NCBI RefSeq assembly: GCF_003664255.1
Contig: NZ_RCCV01000001.1
Span: 4,712,001 to 4,776,000 of the forward strand
Origin: Micromonospora sp. M71_S20
GTDB taxonomy: Bacteria > Actinomycetota > Actinomycetes > Mycobacteriales > Micromonosporaceae
Length of the DNA stretch: 64,000 bases
Direction of reading: 5' to 3'
Notes under the pieces: generated by a model
Database searches by the model: none
What the model was told of the DNA's origin: nothing
The model's input: only the letters and a program-made list of their open reading frames with translations
Program-made: the position numbers and the translations under genes
Part shown: one piece after another, positions 39,179 to 55,490 of the stretch
Position numbering within the stretch: position 1 is the stretch's first letter
How the letters are laid out: each line of letters opens with the position of its first letter

Positions 39179-40390
39179 TCATCCGCCCGTCAGCACCGAG
39201 GCCGCCCGGGTGTCCAGGAAGGCGCGTTCGGCCGCGTTGTCCGTCCGCTCGGCAGCCGTCCGGTACGCCTGCGCCGCCTCCCCCGCCCGGCCGAGCCGCC
39301 GCAGCAGGTCCGCCCGGACGGCGTGGAACACGTGGTACCCGGCCAGGTCGAGCCGCTCGACGGCGGCCAGCCCCGCTGCCGGCCCGGCCACCTCGGCGAG
39401 CGCGACGGCCCGGTTCAGCGCCACCACCGGCCCCGGGGCGTACGCGGTGAGCTGGTCGTACAGCTGGAGGATCTGCGCCCAGTCGGTGCCGGCGGCGTCG
39501 GGCGCGTCGCTGTGCACGGCGGCGATCGCGGCCTGGATCTGGTACGGCCCCGGCCGGTCGCGGCGCAGGCAGCGGCGGACCAGGGCCTGCCCCTCGCCGA
39601 CGAGCCCGGCGTCCCACCGGCGGCGGTCCTGCTCGGGCAGCGGCACCAGCGCGCCGTCGGCCGTGGTGCGGGCGGGGCGGCGCGCCTCGGTGAGCAGCAT
39701 CAGCGCCAGCAGTCCCAGCGCCTCCGGCTCGTCCGGCATCAGCCGCACCAGCAGCCGGCCCAGCCGGATCGCCTCGGCGCACAGGTCGTCGCGGGCCAGC
39801 CGGTCGCCGGAGCTGGCCGTGTGCCCCTCGGTGAAGATCAGGTAGAGCACGGCCAACACGGCGGGGAGCCGGTCGGGCAGGTCGGCGTCGCCGGGCACCC
39901 GGTACGGGATGCCGGCGTCACGGATCTTGGCCTTGGCCCGGACGATGCGCTGGGCCATGGTCGCCTCCGGCACGAGGAACGCCCGGGCGATCTCGGCGGT
40001 GCCCAGCCCGCCCATCAGCCGCAGGGTCAGCGCGACCCGGGCGCCGGGGCCGAGCGCCGGATGGCAGCAGGTGAAGATCAGGCGGAGCCGGTCGTCGCGC
40101 ACGGGTCCCTCCTCGGCCGGTACGTCGCGGACGTGCAGCAGGGCGGCCTGGGCGTGCCGGTCGGCGCGGAAGGCCTCCCGCCGCAGCCGGTCGACGGCCC
40201 GGTTCCGGGCGGTGGTGATGATCCAGCCGGCCGGGCTGGGCGGCGGCCCGGTCTCGGGCCACCGCGCCACCGCCACCGTGAACGCCTCCTGCACCGCCTC
40301 CTCGGCGAGGTCGATGTCGCCGAGGAGGCGGACCAGGACGGCGACCGCGCGGCCGTACTCCGCGCGGAACACCGCCTCCACGTCCGACAC
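39179..40390 (-). CDS. ECF sigma factor, ECF42-like group
   Basis: 403 aa, much longer than a plain ECF sigma. Region 2 begins [21 protein letters not shown] with [17 protein letters not shown]; region 4 is [32 protein letters not shown] 200-residue C-terminal helical domain follows ([66 protein letters not shown]), the TPR-like extension of the ECF42 group. GTG at 40390, 2 bp after the DGPF gene stop, so the two form one operon, the standard ECF42 context. Confidence 0.92.
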
Positions 40391-40392
40391 GC

Positions 40393-40743
40393 TCAGTCCT
40401 CGCCCTGGAAGGGGCGCACCTCGATCGGCAGGGTGGTGGCCAGCGCGTACCGGCGGCCCCACGCCAGCGCGGCGTCGAGGTCGGGCGCCCGGAGGATGGT
40501 GAAGCCGCCGAGGTGCTCCTTGCCCTCGACGAACGGCCCGTCGGTGACCAGCACCTCCCCGTCGGACGGCCGCAGCACGGTCGCCGTGTCCGGCGCGTGC
40601 AGCCCTTGGCCGAAGACCCAGCACCCGGACGCCTCCAGCTCCTCCCGGATCGCGCCCACCTCGCGCATCACCCCGGCCAGGAACTCCGGGTCCGGCGTCC
40701 CCTCGCCGCCGGGCTGGTAGATGCTGACCAGGTACTGCTTCAT
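40393..40743 (-). CDS. DGPF/YCII-domain protein
   Basis: 116 aa, begins [13 protein letters not shown] and carries the eponymous [16 protein letters not shown] motif of DGPF (YCII-related) proteins; C terminus [12 protein letters not shown]. The family is a small alpha/beta dimer of unclear chemistry and nearly always accompanies ECF42 sigma factors, as here. ATG at 40743 after GAGGAGAAGTC. Confidence 0.93.
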
Positions 40744-41330: not shown

Positions 41331-44168
41331 TCAGCTCGGCTGGCCCGCCAGCAACGCGGCCACCGCATCGGCGGTCTCCGGATGCGCGGACAGCAGGGTG
41401 GTCAGTTCCAGCGGGGTGGCGCTCGCGGTGGCGGCCTCCTCGCGCCACCCGCCGTCGCAGCCCAGCAGCGCGGCGACGGCGTCCACGGCCTCCGGATGGC
41501 CGGACAGCAGGCCGGCCACCGGCCCGGACGCGACCGCGGGGAGCGCCGGCGCCGGCGGTGACGCCGGCCTCGACCACGGCGGCACCCAGGCGTCCAGCGC
41601 GGGCAGCGAGCCGGGGAACGTACGCCCCGCCTCCCGCACCAGCAGCGGCACCAGCTCCGCACCGTGCTCCCGCAGGGTGGTGATCAGCGTGGGCAGCCAG
41701 GGCAGCAGGACCGGGTCGGGCAGCCGGGCGAACGCGGACGACATCACCTCCACGACGAACGGGGCGAGCCCCGGCACCGGCTCCAGTGCCTGCACGAAGC
41801 CGCTGAGGTACTGCGGGAAGGCGGGCACCACCAGCGGGTTGGCGAGCAGCGCGCCGCACCGCTCGCGCAACTCGGCCAGGGGCAGCAGGCCCAACTGGTG
41901 CCGGGCGGCCCAGAGCAGCGCCACCTTGGCCGGCGCCTCCGGGTGGGACTGTGCGACGGCGAGTTCGAGCTGGGACCGGTCGCAGCCCAGCGAGAGCGCC
42001 AGGCTCTCCATGCCGAACAGGAAGCCCAGCATGGCGCCGACCTGCCGCACCCCGCTCTCCTCGTCGAGGAACGCGGTGGGCAGCAGGGTGCAGTAGTGCG
42101 CGTACCCGGTGGTCACGAACGCCTCGCACCAGGCCGGCAGCGGCCCGGTGGCGCGGTGGTGGGCCAGCAGCCGCCGGATCCGGCGCAGCACCTCGGGGGC
42201 GTCGTCGACGGTGCGTTCGGCGGCGAGCAGCTCCACCGCCCGGGCGCCGAGCTCGTCGACCAGGCGCGGGCTGTCGAGCAGCCGGATGGCGTCCTCGACG
42301 GCCTCCAGCGCGACCGAGGCCGTCGCGTCCGGGCCCCGCACGGCGCGGCGCAGGCGCTGCTCCAGCACCTGCTCGACGGTCACCCCCTCGTAGCCCAGCT
42401 CGATCAGCGCCCGCTGGCTGCGGCCGAGGGCCAGGTCCCAGCTCTCCTGGATCGAGCGGTGCCCCAACCGGCGCTCGCCCATGATGGGCCGGACCGCGTC
42501 GCGGGGCAGCAGGTGCCGCAGCCGCCACAGCAGGTCCGAGCAGGGCACCAGCTCAGGGCTGGCCCGCAGGTCCACCAGGGCCCGCTGGATCGTGCGTTTC
42601 TCCAGGTCCAGCCCGAGCGGGGCGAGCCGGTCGTGGACGTCGCGGGCGAGCGGCGGAAGAGCCTCGTAGCCCACCTGGCCGACCCGGTCGCCGCCGAAGA
42701 GGATCTCGCAGAGCCGGCGGACGTCGCGTCGGCCCGGGACGACGTCCTTCTCGATGCAGGTGACCGCCGCGTCGGCGAAGTCGTACGGCGTGGGGCGGGC
42801 GCGGTTGCGCAGGCCGGCGAGGAGGATCGAGGTCTCGAAGACGGCGATCGCGTCGGCGGTGCTGGCCAGGTAGCCGTTGCGCCGGGCCAGCCGGACGATG
42901 TCGACGCACCAGCCGCGCAGCTCCGCCTCGTCCAGGCCCTGCGCCGCCGGCGGCTGCGCCAGGTATCCGGAGAGCCGGTCGGCGACCGGGGCGGCCGGCC
43001 CGGGGGTCGGGGCGGCGCGACGGCGGCCACCGCCGCGGGTCCGGCCGCCACGCTGCCCCTCCAGCCGGAACGGGCTCAGCCCGGTGCGGGCGACCGCCTT
43101 GGTCCAGGTGGCGGCGGCGATCGAGACCGAGCCGGGCGCGAGGCCGAACTGCGCCTCGATGGCGGAGTGGCTGGACGGGATCAGCCCGTAGTGCCACCGG
43201 GTGCCGGTGCGCGGGGTGATCTCGAACGGGGCGTCGGCCCGCAGCCCGAACTGCTCCACCCGGCTGGCGGCGTGGAACGCGCCGCAGACGTAGAGGCAGT
43301 CGGCGGGATCGGCCCCGGAGGCGGCGAGGTGCTGCCGCATCCGGGTCCACATGTAGCGCTCCCGGTCCTCGTCACGGTCCTGCCGGTCCGACCCGGCCGG
43401 GCGCAGCCGCCGGAACAGGCTGCCGATCAGCACCATCACCTGCCGGTAGGTGTCGTGGTCGGCGTCGGCCAGGGGCTGCTCGACGTACTGGTCCCACCAC
43501 TCCGACCAGTGCCGGACCTTGCCGTGGTGCAGGAGGTAGGCCTCCAGCTCCGCGAAGCGGGGCCGCAGGTCGCCGATCTCGACGCCGACCGCGTCGCCGT
43601 GCAGGGCGGCCTCCTCCCCCGCCGGTGCGGCGGCCTCGACGTCCCCGCCGGCCGGGGCCTCGTGGGCGTCGTCGGCCAGACGGCGCGGCGACCACTGGAA
43701 GACGTGGTCGGTGGAGCGGTCCACCAGCACCAGCTCGACGCCCGGCGTCTCCAGCGCGTACGCGACGGCCTGGTATTCGGCGCTGGCCTCGGTGATCGGC
43801 GCGACCACGCTCAGCGGCCCCCAGTCGGCCGGGAAGCCGTCCAGCTCCGAGGCGAACGCCTGCACGGCCACCGGCAGGCGGCAGTTGCGCAGCTCGCCCA
43901 GCAGCGGCTGGAGGTCCTCGCAGAGCTCCAGGTAGATCACCTTCGGCTGCTTCGCACGCAGCCTGCGGACCATGGCCAGCGCGGACGCCGGGGAGTGGTG
44001 GCAGACCGGGAAGATCTCCAGTTCCTCGCCGAGGGCGCGGTCGACGTCGTCGACCATGCCGGCGAGGATCTCGGAGACGGCGCCCGAGCTGCCGGCGAAG
44101 GCGCCGGCGGCGGCCGTGAGCTGCTCACGCAGCGCACCGAACGGCCCGGCCGTGGTGGGGGCGGTCAC
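41331..44168 (-). CDS. DUF5682-like (YehM-like) large protein of MoxR/vWA/SWIM cassette
   Basis: 945 aa. The N-terminal third resembles the TraB/ChaN/EreA-type fold: IFPVCHHSPASALAMVRRL (HHSP at residues 57-60), VIYLELCEDLQPLLGEL, and later YVCGAFHAASRVEQFGL. A basic Gly/Arg linker lies near residue 380, and the rest is a long helical array that ends with HPETADAVAALL repeats (HPEAVDAVAALL occurs twice in related form). Family resembles E. coli YehM. GTG at 44168 overlaps the ATPase gene stop by 4 bp. Probably cytosolic; no signal peptide. Activity unknown; the paired histidines suggest a hydrolase-like site. Confidence 0.85.
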   Translation of the reverse strand: MTAPTTAGPFGALREQLTAAAGAFAGSSGAVSEILAGMVDDVDRALGEELEIFPVCHHSPASALAMVRRLRAKQPKVIYLELCEDLQPLLGELRNCRLPVAVQAFASELDGFPADWGPLSVVAPITEASAEYQAVAYALETPGVELVLVDRSTDHVFQWSPRRLADDAHEAPAGGDVEAAAPAGEEAALHGDAVGVEIGDLRPRFAELEAYLLHHGKVRHWSEWWDQYVEQPLADADHDTYRQVMVLIGSLFRRLRPAGSDRQDRDEDRERYMWTRMRQHLAASGADPADCLYVCGAFHAASRVEQFGLRADAPFEITPRTGTRWHYGLIPSSHSAIEAQFGLAPGSVSIAAATWTKAVARTGLSPFRLEGQRGGRTRGGGRRRAAPTPGPAAPVADRLSGYLAQPPAAQGLDEAELRGWCVDIVRLARRNGYLASTADAIAVFETSILLAGLRNRARPTPYDFADAAVTCIEKDVVPGRRDVRRLCEILFGGDRVGQVGYEALPPLARDVHDRLAPLGLDLEKRTIQRALVDLRASPELVPCSDLLWRLRHLLPRDAVRPIMGERRLGHRSIQESWDLALGRSQRALIELGYEGVTVEQVLEQRLRRAVRGPDATASVALEAVEDAIRLLDSPRLVDELGARAVELLAAERTVDDAPEVLRRIRRLLAHHRATGPLPAWCEAFVTTGYAHYCTLLPTAFLDEESGVRQVGAMLGFLFGMESLALSLGCDRSQLELAVAQSHPEAPAKVALLWAARHQLGLLPLAELRERCGALLANPLVVPAFPQYLSGFVQALEPVPGLAPFVVEVMSSAFARLPDPVLLPWLPTLITTLREHGAELVPLLVREAGRTFPGSLPALDAWVPPWSRPASPPAPALPAVASGPVAGLLSGHPEAVDAVAALLGCDGGWREEAATASATPLELTTLLSAHPETADAVAALLAGQPS

Positions 44169-45274
44169 GACAGGGCGGCGATCGCCTGGCGGCCACCGTC
44201 GAGGAAGCCCTCCCAGCCGTCGTCCTGCTTGGCGCGCGGCTCGACCACCCCGTGCAGGTACTTGTTGAGGATCGCCAGGTCCTCCGGGCTGCGCCGGGCC
44301 AGCGAGCCCACCAGCGACCCGGCCAGCGTCGCGGCGCGCAGGGTGCGGTCGCCGAAGAACTGGCTGTGCAGGATGGCATCCTCCAGGACACCGATCTGCT
44401 CGGCGGTGGACAGCGCCGACTCCAGCTTCTCGTCGTCGCTGGTCGCCGAGGTGGCGGCGGCGCGCAGGTCGGCGAAGCTCTGCAACAGGATGTCCAGCAG
44501 GGTGGGCGGCACGTCCAGCGTGATCTGGTGGCGGCGCAGCAGCTCCTCGGTGCGGAAGCGGACGATCTCGGCCTCGCTGCGCTTGTTCGTCACCACGGGG
44601 ATCCGGACGAAGTTGAACCGCCGCTTGAGCGCGGAGGAGAGGTCGTTCACGCCCCGGTCCCGGCTGTTCGCGGTGGCGATGATCGAGAAGCCCGGCTTGG
44701 CGAAGACGATGTTGTCGTGGTCCAGCTCCGGGATGGAGACGTACTTCTCCGACAGGATCGAGATCAGCGCGTCCTGCACGTCGCTGGTGGAGCGGGTCAG
44801 CTCCTCGAACCGGCCGACCGTGCCCTGCTCCATCGCCGTCATGATCGGCGACGGGATCATGGACTCGCGGGACTGGCCCCGGGCGATGACCATGGAGACG
44901 TTCCACGAATACTTGATGTGGTCCTCGGTGGTGCCGGCGGTGCCCTGGACCACCAGGGTCGAGTTGCGGCAGACGGCGGCGGCCAGCAGCTCGGCCAGCC
45001 AGCTCTTGCCGGTGCCCGGGTCGCCGATCAGCAGCAGGCCCCGGTCCGACGCCAGGGTCACGATGCTGCGTTCGACGAACGTACGGTCGCCGAACCACTT
45101 CTGCGGGATCTCCCGGTCGAGCCCGTCGGCCCGTTCCGAGCCGAGGATGAACAGTCGGACCATCCGCGGGCTCAGCCGCCACGAGAACGGCTTCGGGTCG
45201 GTGTCGACCGACTCCAGGAAGTCGAGTTCCTCGGCGTACTTGACCTCGGCGGGGGCGCGGAGCATCTCGGACAT
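44165..45274 (-). CDS. MoxR-type AAA+ ATPase (YehL-like)
   Basis: 369 aa, close to the 362 aa of E. coli YehL. Walker A LLIGDPGTGKSWLAELLA (84-91), Walker B region GTVGRFEELTRSTSDVQDAL, sensor 1 SIIATANSRDRGVNDLS, Arg finger region SSALKRRFNFVRIPVV. The fold is MoxR/RavA class: AAA+ ATPases that work with vWA proteins as chaperones or activators. ATG at 45274 after TAGGAGAACAC. Flanked upstream by the vWA gene (13-bp gap) and overlapping the DUF5682-like gene, which fixes its partners. Confidence 0.94.
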   Translation of the reverse strand: MSEMLRAPAEVKYAEELDFLESVDTDPKPFSWRLSPRMVRLFILGSERADGLDREIPQKWFGDRTFVERSIVTLASDRGLLLIGDPGTGKSWLAELLAAAVCRNSTLVVQGTAGTTEDHIKYSWNVSMVIARGQSRESMIPSPIMTAMEQGTVGRFEELTRSTSDVQDALISILSEKYVSIPELDHDNIVFAKPGFSIIATANSRDRGVNDLSSALKRRFNFVRIPVVTNKRSEAEIVRFRTEELLRRHQITLDVPPTLLDILLQSFADLRAAATSATSDDEKLESALSTAEQIGVLEDAILHSQFFGDRTLRAATLAGSLVGSLARRSPEDLAILNKYLHGVVEPRAKQDDGWEGFLDGGRQAIAALS

Positions 45275-45287
45275 GAGGGGTGTTCTC

Positions 45288-46727
45288 CTAGGTGAGGAAG
45301 CTCTTGAGCTCGAAGACGAGTTTGCGGATGTGGCCGGAGATGACCGGGGTGCCCAGGTCCTTGAAGCGTTGCCGGAACCAGGGGTTGACGCTCTGCTGGC
45401 CCGAGCTGTTGACCGAGCCGACCGGGATGAACCGCACCCCGGAGCGGTGCACCGCCTCGATGCCGTCGAACAACGGCTGGGAGCGGTCGAACTCGTAGAA
45501 GTCCGAGATCCACACCATGACCGTGTTCCTCGGCTCGACGATCTTGGGACGGGCCAGCGCCATCGCGACCGGGCCGTCGTTGCCGCCGCCCAGCTTGGTG
45601 CGCAGCAGCACCTCGAACGGGTCGTGCACCCACGGCGTGAGGTCCAGCGCCCGCGTGTCGTACGCGATCAGGTGCACGTCCACCTTGGGCAGGCCGGCGA
45701 AGATCGACGCGAGGATGGTGCAGTTGACCATCGAGTCGACCATCGAGCCCGACTGGTCCACCACCACGATCAGCCGGGCCGGCGTGACGCGGCGGGCGGT
45801 CTGCCGGTAGTAGAGCCGGTCGACGTAGAGGCGCTCGTCCTCCGGGCTCCAGTTCGTCAGGTTCTGCCAGATGGTGCGGTCGAGGTCGAGGTTGCGGTAC
45901 ACCCGCTTCGGCGGCACGGACCGGTCGACGACGCCGACGCTGGTCTGCGCGACCTGGGTACGCAACACCTCGGCGACCTCGTCGACGAACCGCCGGATGA
46001 GCGCCTTGGCGTTGGCCAGGGCCACCCCGGAGAGGTTGGACTTGTCGCGCAGCAGCTGCTCGATCAGCGACATGCTGGGCGTCAGCCGGCTGGCCAGCAC
46101 CGGGTCGGCCAGCACCTCCCGCAGGTGCATCCGGCGGACCAGGTCACCCTCGATGCCGGCCAGCACCTTGCCCAGGCCGTCGCCGCCCTGCCGGCGCAGC
46201 CCGCCGGGTTCCATCCCGAGGGCCTGCTCGAACCAGCCGGCGTCGGACTGCCACCGCGCCAGTTGGCCGGCGTCGACCGCCCCGTGGCCGGTGGCGAACA
46301 CGTTGAGCAGCAGCTTCGACACGAGCGCGGCGCGGCGTACCTCGGCGGCACCCGGCGCGGACGACGCCCCGTCGTCACCGGGCCCGGCGACAGGTTCGCC
46401 ATCGGGCTCGGTTGCGGGCTCGCCACCGGGCTCGGTTGCGGACTCGGCGGGAGCGTCGGACGCCGCGGCGTCGGGGGCGTCGGGCGTCGGGCGGAGCAGG
46501 CCGCGCAGCTCGTCGGCGACGGCCGGGAAGCGCTGGACGACGGTGTCCACCGACACCGCCGGGTCCAGCAGGGCGGCCGGCAGGCCGAGGTCGTCGACGA
46601 CCGCCATGCTGGCCGACTCCAGGGTGGGCTGCTCCTCGGGGTCGAAGAGCCGGGCCAGCAGCCGCCAGTAGAGCACCTGGCGCCGGTTGGCGTCGGCGAG
46701 GTCCGCGGGGGTCGGGGAGTCGGTCAT
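45288..46727 (-). CDS. vWA-domain protein (YehP-like) of the cassette
   Basis: 479 aa. N-terminal half is helical with an Ala/Glu/Pro low-complexity insert around residues 85-120 (repeated EPDGEP/EPGGEP units). The C-terminal vWA domain starts LIVVVDQSGSMVDSMVN (MIDAS DxSxS near residue 323), with GGGNDGPVAM supplying the conserved Thr/Gly region and VMVWISDFYEF the distal Asp. MoxR ATPases typically remodel or load such vWA partners. ATG at 46727 overlaps the upstream gene stop (ATGA). Confidence 0.93.
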   Translation of the reverse strand: MTDSPTPADLADANRRQVLYWRLLARLFDPEEQPTLESASMAVVDDLGLPAALLDPAVSVDTVVQRFPAVADELRGLLRPTPDAPDAAASDAPAESATEPGGEPATEPDGEPVAGPGDDGASSAPGAAEVRRAALVSKLLLNVFATGHGAVDAGQLARWQSDAGWFEQALGMEPGGLRRQGGDGLGKVLAGIEGDLVRRMHLREVLADPVLASRLTPSMSLIEQLLRDKSNLSGVALANAKALIRRFVDEVAEVLRTQVAQTSVGVVDRSVPPKRVYRNLDLDRTIWQNLTNWSPEDERLYVDRLYYRQTARRVTPARLIVVVDQSGSMVDSMVNCTILASIFAGLPKVDVHLIAYDTRALDLTPWVHDPFEVLLRTKLGGGNDGPVAMALARPKIVEPRNTVMVWISDFYEFDRSQPLFDGIEAVHRSGVRFIPVGSVNSSGQQSVNPWFRQRFKDLGTPVISGHIRKLVFELKSFLT

Positions 46728-48130
46728 CGGCGCAGCAACCGTCCCGCGCGCTCGCGCAGCACCGCCACGGCGTCGCCCGCCTTGGCCTCGGCCTTGGCGA
46801 TCCTCGGGTCGGTGACCCCGCCCGCCCAGTCGCCGGTGTGCGCCTCGACCGGCCGGCGTTTGACGGTGGCCCGCACCGCCAGGGGTTGCAGCAGCCAGCG
46901 ACCGTCGTCCCACCGCACCAGGCCGAGACACGCGGAGGACGCGGCCACCAGTTCGGGGGTGAGTGGGCCGCAGGAGGGCAGCCGGTCGACCGCGACGGCG
47001 ATCGACTCACCGTCCAGTTCGAAGGTCGTCGTGCCGTCGTCGTCGCGCACGGCGTAGCCCTCCACCAGCACGGGCTCGGCGATCCCGACGGGGTGCCGCT
47101 CCAGCGGCGGCGCCGCCGCCGCGACCGCGGTCGGCAGCAGGACCCGGGCGGTGGCGAACGGGTCGGCCGGCTCGCCGGGGCGTACCCGGTCGTCCTGCCA
47201 GAGCAGGTCCGCGCCGTGCAGCGGCAGACCCGTGACCGTCACGGCACGCCGTTCGGCCAGCGCGGCCAGCAGTACCGGGTGGGCGTCCAGCAGGCGCCAC
47301 AGCGCCGGCCCGACGATCGTCTCCACCTTGACCGCGCCGACCGCGCAGCGGACCAGCCGGGGCGGCCCGCCGTCGGCCGGTTCGAGGATCGCGTGCAGCT
47401 GCGCCTGCACGGCGGTGTCGTGCTCGTGCACGTCGACGCCGAGCACGAGCAACCGCCCGGAGACCTCCTCGACGGCGGTCGGGACGGAGGCGGCCGCCGC
47501 GTCCTGGGCGAGCAGCGCGCCCCGGGCCCAGAGGTCGGCCCAGCGCCGCAGCGGCGGCTGCGCCATCGTGGCGACCGGCACGCACGCCCGCAGCTCGGCG
47601 GCGAGCCCGTCGAGCAGCACCGCCAGCCGGCGCAGGCCGGGCTCGGCCAGGGCGGCCTCGACCGGCGCCCCCGCCGCGGCCACGAGCTCGTGGTCGAGGC
47701 CGCCCCACCCCGTCACCGCCACCTCGTGCAGCCAGGCGCGGGCGGCGGCGCGGGCCGGGGACCCGGCGCCCGGGGGCTCGGCCGCGCCGGGCGTCCAGGG
47801 GGCGCGGGCCCGGCCCAGCGCGGTGTCGAGCTGCCCGAGCAGCGCTTCGTGGGCGGCGCCGAGCAGCGCGCACCGGGCGCCGGCGAGGGCGAGGAGGTGT
47901 TCCTCGGCCACCGAACCGGCGGTCACCTTGGCCACCGCCTCGGCGAGCCGGTCGCCGAGTGGGGTGCTGGTCAGCGCGCCGGCCAGGGCGGCCAGCGCGG
48001 CGGCGTCGTCCTCACCCACCCGGGCGAGGCCGCGGAGCAGGGCGTCGTCGAGGTCGGCGACCAGGTCGAGGGCGTCGGTCAGGCCGGTCGGGGTGCCGTC
48101 GCGCAGGACGGCGAGCTGTGTGCCGAGCAT
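46724..48130 (-). CDS. Unknown protein of the MoxR/vWA/SWIM cassette
   Basis: 468 aa, begins MLGTQLAVLRDGTPTGLTDA. It is Ala/Leu-rich and mostly helical in the first 300 residues (AEAVAKVTAGSVAEEHLLAL, RRLAVLLDGLAAELRACVP) with a more beta-like C-terminal third (TTTFELDGESIAVAVDRL, WDDGRWLLQPLAVRATVK). I recognise no named domain; a DUF5691-type assignment is possible but I cannot support it. ATG at 48130 shares one base with the SWIM gene stop (TGATG), and its stop overlaps the vWA start, so it is firmly part of the operon. Confidence 0.8.
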   Translation of the reverse strand: MLGTQLAVLRDGTPTGLTDALDLVADLDDALLRGLARVGEDDAAALAALAGALTSTPLGDRLAEAVAKVTAGSVAEEHLLALAGARCALLGAAHEALLGQLDTALGRARAPWTPGAAEPPGAGSPARAAARAWLHEVAVTGWGGLDHELVAAAGAPVEAALAEPGLRRLAVLLDGLAAELRACVPVATMAQPPLRRWADLWARGALLAQDAAAASVPTAVEEVSGRLLVLGVDVHEHDTAVQAQLHAILEPADGGPPRLVRCAVGAVKVETIVGPALWRLLDAHPVLLAALAERRAVTVTGLPLHGADLLWQDDRVRPGEPADPFATARVLLPTAVAAAAPPLERHPVGIAEPVLVEGYAVRDDDGTTTFELDGESIAVAVDRLPSCGPLTPELVAASSACLGLVRWDDGRWLLQPLAVRATVKRRPVEAHTGDWAGGVTDPRIAKAEAKAGDAVAVLRERAGRLLRR

Positions 48131-48636
48131 CAGCGGGCCGCCCCGGTGGCCGGGAACCAGTGCAGCTCGGGCAGGGGGACCGTGCTGCCGGGCAGTTCCA
48201 GGTAGGACAGGTGGCGCAGGAAGCGGCTGAACACGACGGCGGCGGGGGTCGGCTCGTGCCGCCCGTCCAGCGCGGCGAGCAGCTCCCGGGCGGTTTCCGT
48301 CCCCGCGCCGACGTCCACCCGCAGGTAGCGGGCGACCCGGTCGGCGCCGTACTGCAGCAGTGCCTCGTCGGCCAGGGCGTGCAGGTGCTTGCACGGCGCG
48401 CCGCGCAGCCCGCCGCAGGGACGGTTGTTGTTGGTGCTGCAGTGGTAGGCGTGGGTGCCCGAGGCGATCGACGAGACGTAGACCCGGTCGACGTCCGACC
48501 CGCTGGAGACCACGCCCTGCAACCGCCCGTCGGCCAACTCCACGAAGGGCACCTTGGCCAGCTTGCGGGGCCGCGCCGGCGGCACCACCCGCACCGTGCT
48601 GCGCCGTCGCCACGCGGTCCGTTCCGCGTCAGCCAC
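48130..48636 (-). CDS. SWIM zinc-finger-family protein (YehQ-like)
   Basis: 168 aa from GTG 48636, which follows GGGAGGTCGGACA, an excellent Shine-Dalgarno. Middle region: YHCSTNNNRPCGGLRGAP then CKHLHALADEALL; the CKH end is the CxH half of a SWIM finger, but the first half is C-x7-C rather than C-x-C. Upstream VPFVELADGRLQGVVSSGSD supplies the usual beta strands. SWIM domains bind DNA or protein. It is the first gene of the five-gene cassette; the 218-bp gap to the divergent ArsR gene must contain the cassette promoter. Confidence 0.87.
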   Translation of the reverse strand: MADAERTAWRRRSTVRVVPPARPRKLAKVPFVELADGRLQGVVSSGSDVDRVYVSSIASGTHAYHCSTNNNRPCGGLRGAPCKHLHALADEALLQYGADRVARYLRVDVGAGTETARELLAALDGRHEPTPAAVVFSRFLRHLSYLELPGSTVPLPELHWFPATGAAR

Positions 48637-48821
48637 TGTCCGACCTCCCGTCCGCCGCTCCCGGCGCCGCCCATGACCATCCGGACGCCGGAGGGGGCGC
48701 CGGCGTCGCTGTGACGACAAGGATCATGGACCACGGGTACGACACGACCCCGGTCGGGTTTGCGGACGGCGGCCGCCCGGGGACCGCCCGTCCCCCGTTC
48801 GGACACGCCGAATCACGGCTC

Positions 48822-50048: not shown

Positions 50049-50609
50049 ATGTCGCCACGATCCGTCGCCGAGCTCGTCGCCGCCGTCCAGGCCGGCGAGA
50101 AGATCCGCTACCTGCACTTCTGGGGGCACCGACCGCAGCGTGACGGCAGCGTCGGGCCCGGCTGTCTGAGCCAGTGGTGGCCGGCCTCGTTCACCGACGG
50201 CGAGCGGACGTACGCCACCGCCGAGCACTGGATGATGTGGCACAAGGCGATCCTGTTCGGCGACGCGGCGGCCGCCGACAGGATCCTGGCCGCCGGGCAT
50301 CCCCAACGCGCCAAGTCGATCGGCCGCCAGGTGCGGGGCTTCGACCAGGCGACCTGGGAGGCCCAGCGACACGACATCGTGGTTGCGGGCAGCGTCGCCA
50401 AGTTCGGCCAGCACGACGACCTGCGGGCGTTCCTGCTCGGCACCGGTGAACGGGTGCTCGTGGAGGCCAGCCCGCTCGACCGCGTCTGGGGCATCGGCCT
50501 GGCCGCCGACGACCCGCGCGCGGACGATCCGGCGCGCTGGCAGGGCGCGAACCTGCTCGGTTTCGCCCTCATGGCGGCCCGCGACGCCCTGCGCGCGGGT
50601 GCCCGGTGA
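50049..50609 (+). CDS. NADAR domain protein (YbiA-like)
   Basis: 186 aa. NADAR/DUF1768 blocks: YLHFWGHRP, LSQWWPASFTDGERTYATAE with EHWMMWHKAILF, GVAKFGQ-type AGSVAKFGQHDDLRAFLL, LVEASPLDRVWGIGLAADD and ANLLGFALMAARDALR. Family members cleave N-glycosidic bonds in riboflavin intermediates or remove ADP-ribose from nucleic acid. ATG 50049 is 7 nt after CAGACT, a possible leaderless -10. Neighbours include Nudix and KptA genes with NAD/ADP-ribose chemistry. Confidence 0.92.
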   Translation: MSPRSVAELVAAVQAGEKIRYLHFWGHRPQRDGSVGPGCLSQWWPASFTDGERTYATAEHWMMWHKAILFGDAAAADRILAAGHPQRAKSIGRQVRGFDQATWEAQRHDIVVAGSVAKFGQHDDLRAFLLGTGERVLVEASPLDRVWGIGLAADDPRADDPARWQGANLLGFALMAARDALRAGAR

Positions 50610-50713
50610 GGACGGCGGTCTGATCAGGGTCGTGGGCGTGTCGGTGATCGATACGCGGTGAGGTCTCCGGTAGATGGTTCAGCGACCAAGCAGAACCTGA
50701 AACCGGAAACCTC

Positions 50714-50800
50714 GTGGCCACCATGCCGGTGACGAGGCGGCATGACCTGACCGACGCTCAGTGGGCGGTGCCCGCGCCGCTGCTGCCACCGCATCGCCGA
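50714..50800 (+). mobile_element. IS5-type transposase N-terminal remnant
   Basis: The frame from 50714 reads VTRRHDLTDAQWAVPAPLLP, matching the conserved N terminus of IS5-family transposases, and then decays into Arg-rich residues. No catalytic DDE region follows and no flanking terminal repeats are evident. The rest of the 380-bp gap 50610-50989 holds no recognisable gene. Confidence 0.7.
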
Positions 50801-50989
50801 GACCGTCGCCAGCGTCAACGGCCGGCGACACCTGCTCACAAAAGGCATCGCGGGTTGTCCTCGTCGCTGGCTGGTCGACGACGTTTGACGGCGCCTTGTG
50901 CCCCACCTGTGTCCCGAGCGGTCTACCGCGCCCCAGTCGTCCCCGAGCTGGCGTCGGCGCACACGGCTCAGACAAGGGTAGGGCGCGGG

Positions 50990-51664
50990 CTATCCGAGCG
51001 CCTGCCGGGCGGCCTCGCCCATGGGGTCGTCGCGGGTGGGCATCCCCTGGACAGTTGGCAGCACCTCCTCCTGGAAGACGCCGTGCAGCCGGCGCAGTTC
51101 CCGCGCCGGATGCTCCGCGTCGTCGACCCGCACGTCCCAGAGTGGGTACGGCTGATCGCCGATCACCGTCACGGTCGCCGACCGGGCGCCGTGCCGGTCA
51201 CCGCCGGCCTCCTCGCCGGTCTCGATGGCCAGCACCAGCCGCTCCGCCAGGTCGATCTCACGGCTGTCCTCGAACACCCGGACGATCTCCGCGAGGGTCT
51301 CGGGGCCCACCAGGCGGTTGCCCTGCACCGCGAAACCCGGCCCGGTGTGGTGTCCCGCCCAGTCCCTCGTACGGGAGCCGGTGAAGGCGTGCGAGCGACC
51401 CTGCCGGTCGACCATGCCGACCTGCCGCACCTCCCGACCCGGGTCCCGGGCCAGCAGCTCGGTCAGGACATCCTGCGGCGAGCGGCCCTCGCCCAGCAGC
51501 GGCAGGCCGTCGTAGGCCAGGAACGGATTGGGGGTGGCCTGGGTCGCCACCACACCACCGGGGTGGACGTGTGCGACAAACTTGCCGACCGCGGGCCTGG
51601 CCGTCAGGGCTCCCACCCCAAGCTGGCCGGTGCGCGGACACCGTGCGGCGATCGAGAAGGTCAC
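50990..51664 (-). CDS. DUF1028 (Ntn-hydrolase-like) protein
   Basis: 224 aa from GTG 51664 (VTFSIAARCPRTGQLGVG). DUF1028 features: the TFSI start, KFVAHVHPGGVVATQATPNP, RQVGMVDRQGRSHAFTGS and WAGHHTGPGFAVQGNRLVG; Thr2 next to the start is the usual candidate nucleophile. Family function is not established (Ntn-hydrolase fold, linked to amidohydrolase activity). An upstream in-frame stretch exists but lacks family similarity. Stop TAG at 50990. Lies between the IS remnant and the Nudix gene. Confidence 0.85.
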   Translation of the reverse strand: MTFSIAARCPRTGQLGVGALTARPAVGKFVAHVHPGGVVATQATPNPFLAYDGLPLLGEGRSPQDVLTELLARDPGREVRQVGMVDRQGRSHAFTGSRTRDWAGHHTGPGFAVQGNRLVGPETLAEIVRVFEDSREIDLAERLVLAIETGEEAGGDRHGARSATVTVIGDQPYPLWDVRVDDAEHPARELRRLHGVFQEEVLPTVQGMPTRDDPMGEAARQALG

Positions 51665-51943
51665 GGTCGGCAGATACCCGGACGAACGCCCGGCATTACC
51701 GGATCCGGCGTCGGTTGCTGTCACCGTTGCCGCCGTCAGGACCTCCACGAACGGCACCCGCCAGCAGACACCGCCCCCTACAACCTCCACAGCCCACCCG
51801 TCTGGCTCGGCATCAGCTGCACACCTCTGGGCCGTGTTCACAGTTCGCGTCAGAGCCACTCGTTGATCGCGACGACGTGACGTGTGGCCTGGTGGCGCGG
51901 GAGGTCGCGGCGTCCCCGGGTGCGCCGGGTAACGTGCTGCGGC

Positions 51944-52456
51944 ATGACCGCCGTGGCGTACTCCCACTGCTCCTTCTGCGGCGCCGCCTATCCGGCGGCG
52001 GCCGGGTGGCCGCGGGTCTGCGCGGCCTGCGGCGGGACGGTGTGGCGCAACCCGCTGCCGGTCGCGGTGGCGGTGCTGCCGGTCCGCACGGCCCGGGGCC
52101 TCGGGGTGGTCGTCGTGCGCCGCGACATCGAGCCCGCCCGCGGCCAGCTCGCGCTGCCGGGGGGCTTCATCGAGTACGGCGAGGAGTGGCAGGAGGGGCT
52201 GGTCCGGGAGCTGTGGGAGGAGACCGGCCTGCGCGCCGACGCCGCCGACGCCCGGCTCCTCGCGGTGCACGGCGCCCCGGCCGGCGGCACGATGATGGTC
52301 TTCGGCGAGCTGCCCGAGCGCCGGGCCGACGCGCTGCCGCCGTCGGCGCCGACCGAGGAGGCCACCGAGTGGCTGGTGCTCACCGAGCCGACGGAGCTGG
52401 CCTTCTCCACCCACACCCGCGTGCTCGCCGACTTCCTCGCCCGGCGCGCGGGCTGA
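51944..52456 (+). CDS. Nudix hydrolase with N-terminal zinc ribbon
   Basis: 170 aa. Zinc ribbon CSFCGAAY...CAACGG at residues 9-32, then the complete Nudix box GGFIEYGEEWQEGLVRELWEE with TGL, fulfilling Gx5Ex7REUxEExGU. The zinc ribbon is typical of the NudC/ADP-ribose-active subgroup, so an NAD-derived or nucleoside diphosphate substrate is plausible. Start ATG 51944 (8 nt after TAACGT) rather than an upstream ATG 51884, because the ribbon then begins the protein. Convergent with kptA. Confidence 0.9.
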   Translation: MTAVAYSHCSFCGAAYPAAAGWPRVCAACGGTVWRNPLPVAVAVLPVRTARGLGVVVVRRDIEPARGQLALPGGFIEYGEEWQEGLVRELWEETGLRADAADARLLAVHGAPAGGTMMVFGELPERRADALPPSAPTEEATEWLVLTEPTELAFSTHTRVLADFLARRAG

Positions 52457-52466
52457 GCCGGACCGC

Positions 52467-53006
52467 TCAGTCGGCCAGGTACCGGGCGGGCACCGCGTCG
52501 GTCAGCCAGACGCCGTTGGCGCTGCGATAGAAGGCGTGCCCGTCGCGGGCCATCGCCGCCGCGTCCACGGTCAGCACCACCAGCTCGCCCGGCCGGCGGG
52601 CACCCACCCGCCGGGCGGTCGCCACGTCCGGCGACAGGTGGACGTGGTGCCGGCCGGCCCGGTGCAGGCCGGTGGCCCGGATCGAGTCGAGCGCGACGCG
52701 GCTGGTGCCGTGGTAGAGCCGCGCCGGCGGCGGGCTGGGCGCCAGTTCCAGGTCGACCGGGATCGAGTGCCCCTGGTTGGCCCGGACCCGTTCGACGCCG
52801 TCGGCACCGCGTTCCACGGCGAAGCGCTGCTTGTCGTTGCCGGCCACCACGGCGTCCAGGTCGGCCCGGTCGATCCCGAGCGCGGCGAGCAGGTCGTCGA
52901 CCGACACCCAGCCGGCCCGGTCGGGCACGAGGCCGAACCGGGCGGGCTCGTGCCGCAACGCCAGGGACATCCGCTTGCTCAGCCGCACCATCGCCCGGTG
53001 ATCCAT
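52467..53006 (-). CDS. kptA: RNA 2'-phosphotransferase (Tpt1/KptA)
   Basis: 179 aa. Conserved blocks in order: LSKRMSLALRHEPARFGL (active-site Arg/His), WVSVDDLLAAL, ANQGHSIPVDLEL, LYHGTSRVALDSI and HHVHLSPD. The enzyme transfers an internal RNA 2'-phosphate to NAD, forming ADP-ribose 1'',2''-cyclic phosphate. Bacteria lack tRNA splicing of the eukaryotic type, so the native role may be RNA repair or ADP-ribosylation of RNA ends. ATG 53006 (ATG 52991 also possible). Converges with the Nudix gene with a 10-bp gap. Confidence 0.94.
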   Translation of the reverse strand: MDHRAMVRLSKRMSLALRHEPARFGLVPDRAGWVSVDDLLAALGIDRADLDAVVAGNDKQRFAVERGADGVERVRANQGHSIPVDLELAPSPPPARLYHGTSRVALDSIRATGLHRAGRHHVHLSPDVATARRVGARRPGELVVLTVDAAAMARDGHAFYRSANGVWLTDAVPARYLAD

Positions 53007-53267: not shown

Positions 53268-55490
53268 ATGTCCGATCCACCGGTGACGCCGTACGACGTC
53301 GTGGAGCTGCGGGTGCACGGGGTCTCCGGCGCGGACGCGAGCGCGGTGCTGGGCCGCCCCTTCGTGCAGCAGGTGGCCGGGGACCGCAACGGCGGCTTCC
53401 ACCGTCCCCGGCCCGGTTACCCGGACAGCCGCGGGGCGGGCGGGGTGACGATGGAGGCGTACCGCTGGAGCGACCTGCCGTCGGGCACCGCGGTGCGGAC
53501 GTTGTCGCTGGTGTTCCTGCTGCCCTTCATGCTCTGCAACGTCGCGATCTGGATGCGCCCGCGCAGCCGCGGCTCCGGGGCGGGCGTGAAGGCCCTCTGC
53601 CGGATGCTGGCGCTCACGCTGACCGCGCTCTATGTGCTCTCCATCGTCGGGGTGGCGCTGGACCTGGTGGCCTGGCGGTGCATGTCCTCGCCGCGCTGCC
53701 TCGCCGGCCGGGACTGGCTGTCCTGGCTGGGCGGGCGGCCGACGGGGCTGCGCCTGGCGGTGCTCGCGCTGGTCCCGGCCGCCGCGATCGGGCTGGTCTG
53801 GCGCCTCGGCGCGCGCCCCGGCCGCAACTTCGACGCCTTCCGGGGGCCGGCCGTCGTCTCGGGGGCGCACCAGCTCAGCGCGGTGGGCCAGTGGGACGCC
53901 GCACCGCTGGTCGGGCGGCTGCGGTCGATCCACGTGGCGGCGGCCTTCGCCACCCTGGATCTCAGCCTGCTCGTGGCCCGGTCCGCCCGGGACGCCTCCG
54001 TCGTCGTGCTGGCGCTCACCGCCGCGACCGGCGTGGTCCTGCTGGCCTGCCTGGTCCTGGTGTGCGCGCACCCGGTGATCGACGGGACCGCCCCGGCGGG
54101 CGTGGACCAGGCCACCGGGGCCCTTCAGGCGGCGGCCTGCGCGCTGACGGCGCTGGTCCTGGTGGTGGTCGCCGCCGATCCCGCCCCCTGGCCCTCGGGC
54201 GGCGGGCTGCCCGGGTACGGCCTGATGGTCGCCGGCCTGTTCGCCGTCCAGACGGTCCTGCTCGCGGCGCTCGGCCTGGTGGCGCTGCGGGGGCCGGACG
54301 GACAGCGCGGCGGCACCCCGCTGCGCGGGCTCGGCGGGCCGGTCATCGCCGCCGTCGCGACCGGGCTGGCGGTGGCGTTCTCCGCCGAGCTGGTCTACCG
54401 GGTGGCGGACATGCTGGACCGCGACGCCCCCACGGCGCAGCGGCTGGCCACCAGTCCGCCGTTGGCCTACAAGTGGGCGATCTTCGGGTTCATGCTGGCG
54501 GTGCTGGCCACGCTGGCCGTCGCCGCCGTGGCGACGGTGCTCACCCGGCCCGGCCGGTTGCGCGCCGCCGCGTCCACCGTGGCCCGGGACTTCCCCGACG
54601 CCCCGCCGGAGGCCGACGGCCGGCTGCGGCAGGTCGAGAAGGCCGTCGCCCGGGCCCGGTTCACCGAGTGGCTGGAACCGCTGACCGTCGTGTACGCGTG
54701 CCTCGCCGCCCTCGGCCTGGCCGCCAGCTCCCTCGGGATGCTGCGGCTCAATCCCGGTGACGCGGCCGAGCGGTACGCGGGCGTGCCGGCGGCCCTGGTC
54801 GACTTCGGCATCGGCGTCGGCAGCTACCTGATCGCGGCGGTCGTCCTCGCTCTGGTCGTCGGCGGGATCTTCGCCTACCGGACGGCCGAGTTCCGCCGGT
54901 ACGTCGGCGTGCTGTGGGATCTCGGCACGTTCTGGCCCCGGGCGGCGCACCCGTTCGCGCCACCCTGCTACGCCGAGCGGGCCGTGCCGGAGCTGACCCG
55001 GCGGATCTGCTACCTGACCGGGCGCGGCGACACGGTGCTGCTGGCCGGGCACAGCCACGGCTCGGTGCTGCTCGCGGCGACCGTGCTGCAACTGCCGCCG
55101 GGCGTCGGCGAGCGGGTGGCCCTGCTGACGTACGGGTCGCCGCTGCGCCGGCTCTACACCCGGCTCTTCCCCGCCTACGTCGACGCGGACGTGCTGCGCG
55201 AGGTGGGCGAGCGGGTGGGCTGGCGGTGGTTGAACCTGTGGCGCGACACCGACTCGATCGGCAGCTGGATCTTCTCCCCGCACCGTCCCGGCGAGCCCCC
55301 GGCGGTGGCCGGCGCGGCGGGGGCGGTCGACCGGCGGCTGCGCGACCCGTGGGACGTGGTGGCCCCGCCGAGCGACAGCGTCCCGCCACCGATCCTGGGG
55401 CACTGGCCGGGCGAGTCCGACGTGCGCTTCGCCGCGGCGGTGGAGGAGCTGGCCGACCGGTTGCGCCGCCAGGCGCCGCCGCCCGCCTGA
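53268..55490 (+). CDS. Multi-pass membrane protein with split alpha/beta-hydrolase domain
   Basis: 740 aa. A hydrolase-like strand and oxyanion loop [14 protein letters not shown] occur at the N terminus; then about eleven membrane helices from residue 80 to 550 (for example [56 protein letters not shown]); then the nucleophile elbow [16 protein letters not shown] (Ser about 599) and a C-terminal hydrolase segment. Thus a membrane module seems to be inserted into one hydrolase fold. Substrate unknown; lipid or peptidoglycan-lipid hydrolysis would fit a membrane site. ATG 53268 after GGGGGGCCG. It precedes smpB by 46 bp. Confidence 0.8.

Follow-up and report, generated by a model that had tools for sequence, protein, structure and literature searches.

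Organization of the cassette

The window analysed here is a stretch of 64,000 nucleotides from the 7.8 Mb genome of Micromonospora sp. M71_S20 (NCBI RefSeq assembly GCF_003664255.1, contig NZ_RCCV01000001.1, positions 4,712,001 to 4,776,000). At 41331-48636 it harbors an operon of five minus-strand genes coding for a SWIM-like protein, a 468-residue protein first recorded as "unknown", a vWA protein, a MoxR AAA+ ATPase and a DUF5682 protein. This cassette (type C below) belongs to a group of ATPase systems that is known but unexplained; its make-up is strictly conserved, and it is a deep lineage of its own among the YehL-type MoxR/vWA systems. For the family, a DNA-damage response is the best-supported role, ahead of phage defence; for the window's own copy this role is putative. 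The features of the locus are:

48723-48745, minus strand: conserved upstream element GTGTCGTAC-N8-CATGAT (upstream motif scans)
48130-48636, minus strand: SWIM-like zinc-site protein, 168 residues from GTG, first gene of the operon; an alternative shorter start at 48594 is possible
48385-48441, minus strand: variant SWIM site C66-x7-C74-x7-C82-x-H84 (alignment of 80 type C SWIM proteins)
46724-48130, minus strand: 468-residue "unknown" protein, helical N-terminal half and two predicted OB folds
46868-47485, minus strand: predicted tandem OB folds of the 468-residue protein, residues 216-421 (structure model)
45288-46727, minus strand: vWA protein, VWA_CoxE, YehP-like, 479 residues (Pfam, YehP BLAST)
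44165-45274, minus strand: MoxR AAA+ ATPase of the YehL subfamily, 369 residues (YehL match, AAA tree)
41331-44168, minus strand: DUF5682 protein (divergent YehM), 945 residues, with a Tiki-like N-terminal domain followed by helical repeats
43098-44030, minus strand: DUF5682 N-terminal domain with H57 H58 P60...E81...D150...R269 E270...G296-x-x-H299 (19-protein alignment)

A re-reading of the window returned all five genes with the positions, lengths and overlaps assigned to them in the original prediction. The SWIM and 468-residue genes are joined by TGATG, the latter and the vWA gene by ATGA, and the AAA and DUF5682 genes by GTGA; vWA and AAA genes are separated by a 13-bp gap. The motifs DQSGS, HHSP and GAFHA are all present in the proteins of the window.

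Conservation and distribution

Relatives were searched for with three DUF5682 proteins in named genomes, and the best 80 of 535 relatives were used as loci. By title all of them are actinomycetes (Micromonospora, Salinispora, Nonomuraea, Streptosporangium, Actinomadura, Actinoplanes, Dactylosporangium and others), and the cassette is widespread in soil actinobacteria. The order SWIM, 468-residue protein, vWA, AAA, DUF5682 on one strand is found in 76 of the 80 loci, which is far from chance, and the remaining four (L034, L051, L065 and L081) begin within the operon at a contig end. The predicted cassette is confirmed in place, strand, overlaps and motifs, and the homologs of its genes, whose occurrence mostly apart had been named beforehand as evidence against it, are found together. 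The AAA protein is 80-94% identical to that of the window across the 80 loci. The flanks vary, the commonest flank gene family being present in 13 of 85 loci and at scattered positions; therefore the cassette is a unit occupying many sites.

Counting all types together, 21 of 296 genomes sampled across the phylum and 37 of 150 from the order have a DUF5682 gene. The sample of the order lists 15 genomes of the window's own genus, six of them with DUF5682, four of which score like type C. In the genus of genome G023 the gene of the 468-residue protein occurs in 35 of 150 genomes, one match being marginal; matches of this protein in L019 (G008) and G533 (E about 7e-4) were judged to be accidental and excluded. 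Five records labelled as plasmids carry type C. Two of them, from Streptomyces (927 and 970 kb), are plausible plasmids, and the other three measure 3.1-11.9 Mb. S. fungicidicus carries the cassette on its plasmid p1, with an N-6 DNA methylase gene nearby.

Relation to other YehL-type systems

The neighbourhoods of DUF5682 genes sort into four types (the labels are our own). Type A consists of SWIM, DUF5691, AAA, DUF5682 and vWA genes and is also found in Deinococcus and Rhizobium. Type B runs from DUF4132 through a roughly 1,650-residue protein, AAA and a fused DUF5682-vWA protein to a YehQ-like protein; type C is the cassette of the window, and type E comprises yehI, L, M, P and Q as in E. 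coli. A tree built from 33 AAA proteins groups each of the types A, B and C as one clade with 100/100 support, and type E is not a single clade. Type C is set on a long stem (1.94) and shows little internal divergence.

The relationship to yehLMPQ proposed originally was found for three of the four genes and could not be detected by sequence for the fourth. In BLAST-type comparison with E. coli K-12 the AAA protein of the window is 39% identical to YehL (2e-84) and the vWA protein 32% identical to YehP (4e-44), while the DUF5682 protein gives a clear match to YehM only over about 100 N-terminal residues (3e-5), supplemented by its match to the Pfam family. Between the SWIM or the 468-residue protein and YehQ no sequence similarity was detectable. 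The E. coli cluster yehL-yehM-yehP-yehQ, with yehI (DUF4132) upstream, likewise unites a YehL-type AAA protein, DUF5682 and a CoxE-type vWA protein, with a SWIM-containing protein where the cassette has a SWIM-like one. In the window, by contrast, the gene order differs, no DUF4132/WGR gene is present, the SWIM protein is split in two, and the AAA protein belongs to a separate clade.

Type A operons resemble the cassette in having five genes, four of which code for the same identifiable components. The last three genes are ordered differently, however, the AAA proteins fall into separate clades, and the second gene of type A codes for DUF5691, which is unmatched by the 468-residue protein. The window's own genome also carries a second YehL-type system, of type B (L016 2585-15396; G000:C1:3661001-3681000), including a fused DUF5682/vWA protein of 1196 residues and a 1685-residue protein without a Pfam match. 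It shares AAA, DUF5682, vWA, a SWIM-like protein and a related upstream site with the cassette, but its DUF5682 and vWA parts are one protein, two additional genes are present, and its AAA protein is only 43% identical to that of the window. In two of the 80 loci, from Salinispora pacifica and S. cortesiana, a yehI-L-M-P-Q operon of type E comes immediately after the type C cassette, in the same orientation (L029 14093-22796 and L039 12831-20344; the DUF4132 gene of L039 is short, 290 residues).

vWA and AAA proteins

The vWA protein of the window matches the Pfam family VWA_CoxE (PF05762, 4e-29), and all 84 type C vWA proteins examined contain the DQSGS motif of the metal-ion-dependent adhesion site. 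Among the type C AAA proteins Walker A is found in 84 of 86 and ALKRRF, a candidate arginine finger, in all 86. In NCBIfam the AAA protein shows a likeness below threshold to GvpN and MadB ATPases (MadB 9e-10, 38 of the 475 bits needed). PADLOC gave weak generic matches only, for the vWA and AAA proteins (best mad8, 8.6e-6).

SWIM protein and its partner

No match to Pfam SWIM was obtained with hmmscan, but a variant C-x7-C-x7-C-x-H site is invariant in all 80 aligned type C SWIM proteins, including that of the window. It is in register with the true SWIM finger of type A, weakly (hhalign P 0.014, probability 3%).

The 468-residue protein had been regarded as an extra gene relative to yehLMPQ, a description that the wider set of loci does not support. 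In the genus of G023 it is fused to the SWIM protein in one frame in six of the 30 loci read out of 36 match rows (631-653 residues between the hit ends, to be compared with 614 residues for E. coli YehQ), and the sister type A also has five genes. It is better seen as half of a SWIM protein. In the 76 complete named loci the two genes are separate, 75 times in a different frame and once in the same frame with a stop. On an Iodobacter plasmid YehQ of the E. coli type is likewise split into two overlapping genes (L211 10537-12593), and SWIM and DUF5691 of type A are fused in L130 and, by our gene calls, in L142. A SWIM part with a partner, fused or split, is a theme common to the types.

Two identities considered for the 468-residue protein were set aside because the similarity was not significant, in comparisons limited by shallow profiles of 5-10 sequences. 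DUF5691 gave hhalign P 0.29, and no match to Pfam DUF5691 (PF18944) was seen up to E 10; the YehQ body gave P 0.09-0.31 across the partner comparisons. The AlphaFold model of this protein consists of a helical half and two OB folds (mean predicted local distance difference test 90.1, predicted template modelling score 0.87). The best Foldseek matches of the OB region are a DNA-bound HIN domain (1.1e-3, probability 1.00) and baculovirus LEF-3, a single-stranded DNA binder (1.5e-4). With two OB folds predicted in its partner, the nucleic-acid recognition originally ascribed to the SWIM protein is plausible, and judging from the zinc site and this model the SWIM/OB pair probably binds nucleic acid.

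DUF5682 protein

The product of the last gene of the operon had been called DUF5682-like, and this identity is now secured by a Pfam DUF5682 (PF18934) match of the sub-stretch encoded at 42144-43964 (8.7e-32, 110.8 bits, 109.7 bits in a second scan; cut-off 26 bits). With the full 945 residues hmmscan reported no DUF5682 match, which looks like an artefact of the search filter; the reading that the protein is not DUF5682 is ruled out by the sub-stretch match. Automatic annotation of divergent DUF5682 members may accordingly be wrong.

Every one of 19 DUF5682 proteins, drawn from the four types, has H57, H58, P60, E81, D150, R269, E270, G296 and H299, among other invariant residues; their N-terminal domains are otherwise only 20-43% identical to that of E. 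coli YehM. All 19 show the order of the Tiki set, i.e. a first His after strand 1, a Glu after strand 2, a basic residue and a final G-x-x-H. The order His...Glu...Arg...G-x-x-H is common to DUF5682 and the Tiki superfamily (TraB/GumN, ChaN, erythromycin esterase). The solved member RRSP uses His3902, Glu3930, His4030, Glu3900 and a conserved Arg4001 (PMC6254334). Compared with RRSP, the Arg-to-His spacing of DUF5682 is 30 versus 29 and the His-to-Glu spacing 23 versus 28, and Glu3900 has no counterpart. Unlike Tiki members, DUF5682 has a long helical-repeat tail, and the sequence similarity is below significance. Hhalign of DUF5682 against seven TraB proteins gave P 7.5e-4 (probability 25%) at the R...G-x-x-H segment; the same TraB set gave P 0.32-0.74 against four other families of these operons. 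Among the 19 N-terminal domains weak matches below the Pfam cut-off were found to ChaN (two, best E 0.0076) and TraB (two, best 0.0085). Four other families also gave one weak match each, and one of these, CBM46 (0.0044, E. coli YehM), is stronger than ChaN and TraB. Taken together, the Tiki-superfamily-like residues of the DUF5682 N-terminus are suggestive but short of proof.

The model of the full protein is poor (predicted template modelling score 0.43), with strands and helices predicted in residues 52-331. A fold search with it returned helical-repeat matches only; ChaN and TraB are missing from the list, which tells little as the repeats fill it. The best matches of a PDB sequence search with the N-terminal domain look like chance. 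The TraB family is nearly absent from the relatives (one weak match in 61 genomes), and a query with E. coli YbaP found no relative in viral contigs. No mention of DUF5682 or DUF5691 was found in the open-access literature searched.

Upstream promoter element

Up to 350 bases before the SWIM start, the sense strand was scanned with the consensus of the actinobacterial LexA/RecA-independent DNA-damage (P1) promoter, tTGTCRgtg-N8-TannnT (PMC5656591). With no, at most one and at most two mismatches it was found upstream of 4, 18 and 34 of 81 type C cassettes as against 0, 3 and 16 of 961 control genes taken from these loci, genes whose upstream region overlaps the cassette promoter and upstream regions shorter than 340 bases being excluded. 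When the control is limited to genes with an upstream gap of at least 100 bases, the counts are 0, 2 and 13 of 569. For the first genes of types A, B and E the consensus was found in 5, 9 and 13 of 17 cases as against 1, 2 and 4 of 158; in this count two type A loci with divergent SWIM and AAA genes are entered twice, some genomes contribute several loci, and the control includes genes within operons.

The enrichment has limits. Of 22 genus labels six reach at most one mismatch and 12 at most two, and 12 of the 18 best type C matches are from Nonomuraea. In the window's genus (16 loci) and in Salinispora (three loci) no locus comes within two mismatches, and type A loci L131-L133 have 3-4. The element of the window itself, GTGTCGTAC-N8-CATGAT, has five mismatches to the consensus, keeping TGTCR and departing elsewhere, and would be at best a degenerate relative of it.

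The 8-mer TGTCGTAC of the window's element is present on either strand in 46 of 81 type C upstream regions. A loosened pattern, built to include this element, gave 48 sites in the genome versus 6 for the reversed control. Of these 48, 30 were read as loci, and 11 of the 30 precede a gene start. Two of these genes code for an AlkZ-like DNA glycosylase (site GTGTCGTACCGGTGGATTAGGGT) and an ATP-dependent DNA ligase, and both the type B and the type C operon are included; GreA, a DAK2 protein, a GNAT protein and an HTH protein are among the other seven. Patterns of the LexA box, sigR, HspR and CIRCE were not clearly enriched in the upstream regions.

Possible function

YehL is described as one of seven named MoxR subfamilies, with a role that is unclear (PMC3893208). 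Several lineages of this named but unexplained branch are now tied to one promoter type and, by inference, also to a radiation-induced operon. In D. deserti the five-gene operon from Deide_18730 (SWIM) to Deide_18690 (CoxE-like VWA), ddrTUVWX, is induced by radiation under IrrE/DdrO (PMC5552922). This operon is very probably of type A, since the corresponding operon of D. taeanensis is annotated as SWIM, DUF5691, AAA, a short hypothetical protein, DUF5682 and VWA. In D. radiodurans depletion of DdrO is reported to strongly up-regulate a WGR protein and an operon that includes a DUF4132 protein (PMC8533742); partner genes of this sort are found in types B and E. The original prediction had left the choice between stress response and defence. 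Promoter enrichment and the Deinococcus operon point to the former, although the window's own promoter taken alone does not favour it, and the defence half of the proposal fares worse. We consider a role of the cassette in DNA damage or desiccation to be somewhat favoured.

Such a response might proceed as follows. Genotoxic stress would induce the operon; in several genera a PafBC/P1-type promoter, the motif of which is present there, would mediate this. The SWIM protein and its OB-fold partner, jointly equal to one YehQ-sized protein, would then bind nucleic acid or nucleoprotein, as their zinc site and predicted fold suggest. By analogy with characterised MoxR-vWA pairs, the vWA protein would capture a peptide and the MoxR ring would remodel the complex using ATP. 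DUF5682 would be the client or the effector, its conserved Tiki-like His/Glu/Arg/His site hydrolysing protein or another substrate and its helical repeats serving as a scaffold. An ATP-driven DNA-damage or desiccation response machine, with the molecular activity proposed here, is the best reading of the cassette as a whole, and we put it at about even odds. The narrower proposal that DUF5682 is a Tiki-type hydrolase gated by MoxR/vWA is tentative, and we lean against it; if true, it would add a new ATP-gated effector to the bacterial DNA-damage response. It is doubtful that all YehL-type systems (yehLMPQ, ddrTUVWX, types A, B and C) are one DNA-damage/desiccation machine in which SWIM/OB senses damaged nucleic acid and AAA+/vWA activates or loads DUF5682 as a Tiki-fold protease.

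The N-terminal domain of DUF5682 may instead be a nucleotide- or ligand-binding scaffold, its invariant His, Glu and Arg being structural and the machine only remodelling nucleoprotein. The weakness of the Tiki link would agree with this, as would the fact that ChaN, one of the matched families, is a haem-binding member and that a Tiki-fold member without the catalytic set is reported (PMC6254334). The invariance of H57, H58, E81, R269 and H299 across four types, in domains otherwise so divergent, argues against it, and we regard the scaffold as rather unlikely. Maturation of one dedicated enzyme, with assembly or metal insertion as by MoxR/MoxC or CoxD/CoxE and DUF5682 as the scaffold, is what characterised MoxR-vWA pairs do (PMC7159879, PMC3893208), and the vWA protein is indeed of the CoxE family. 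Yet no conserved metalloenzyme gene was found nearby, no flank family reaching more than 13 of 85 loci, and SWIM and OB-like subunits together with a damage promoter would fit such a chaperone unnaturally; we consider it improbable.

An anti-phage conflict system of the MoxR-vWA ternary kind, in which SWIM/OB senses invader nucleic acid and MoxR-vWA unleashes a DUF5682 effector, had been the other half of the original proposal. MoxR-vWA pairs form the core of predicted conflict systems (PMC7159879), and like the ternary systems of the VMAP, iSTAND and FtsH classes the cassette has another component besides its MoxR and vWA core. A weak resemblance links the AAA protein to ATPases of MADS defence (MadB, mad8), and the cassette is patchy within a genus, without a fixed site. 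The DNA methylase on p1 of S. fungicidicus, a type I restriction system beside the E. coli-type copy of the Iodobacter plasmid and the two tandem Salinispora loci would also suit defence. On the other hand, none of the five proteins has a strong PADLOC match. In the 150 nearest flank genes (of 151 eligible, those shorter than 80 or longer than 900 residues being excluded, and flank genes only being scanned, without a background set) no PADLOC model matched more than three at 1e-10. Their Pfam families are ordinary: among the matches listed, for which the top 25 families were considered, the commonest are cupins, regulators and metabolic enzymes. Searches of viral contigs and phage records yielded no relative. 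The AAA protein is uniform across the 80 loci and, unlike in ternary systems, no variable effector module and no effector fused to the vWA protein is seen; Pfam shows no VMAP, iSTAND or FtsH partner among the unnamed proteins of the cassette or in DUF5682, although a distant one may escape such a scan. The enrichment of the damage promoter also argues against defence, which we judge improbable; neither this role nor the expected association with defence islands is borne out, and a DNA-damage response remains the preferred reading.

Neighbouring genes

An ArsR-SRPBCC pair flanking the cassette was matched, in some cases weakly, in 80 of 81 genomes of the genus. In an attempted empty-site comparison 30 ArsR-SRPBCC loci were read; the cassette lies beside the pair only in its own locus and in L179, and no clean empty site was seen. 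A NADAR gene adjoins ArsR-SRPBCC also in L180 and L199, and no cassette gene was found in either locus. At 53283-55490 the window codes for a 735-residue protein without a Pfam match at E 0.001. Genes of NADAR (50049-50609), DUF1028 (50990-51553), NUDIX (51944-52456) and KptA/Tpt1 RNA 2'-phosphotransferase (52467-52991) are clustered at 50049-52991, and three of these four have ties to NAD or ADP-ribose chemistry. Downstream of the cassette, at 39179-40743, a Sigma-70-like factor with DUF6596 adjoins a YCII-domain gene.

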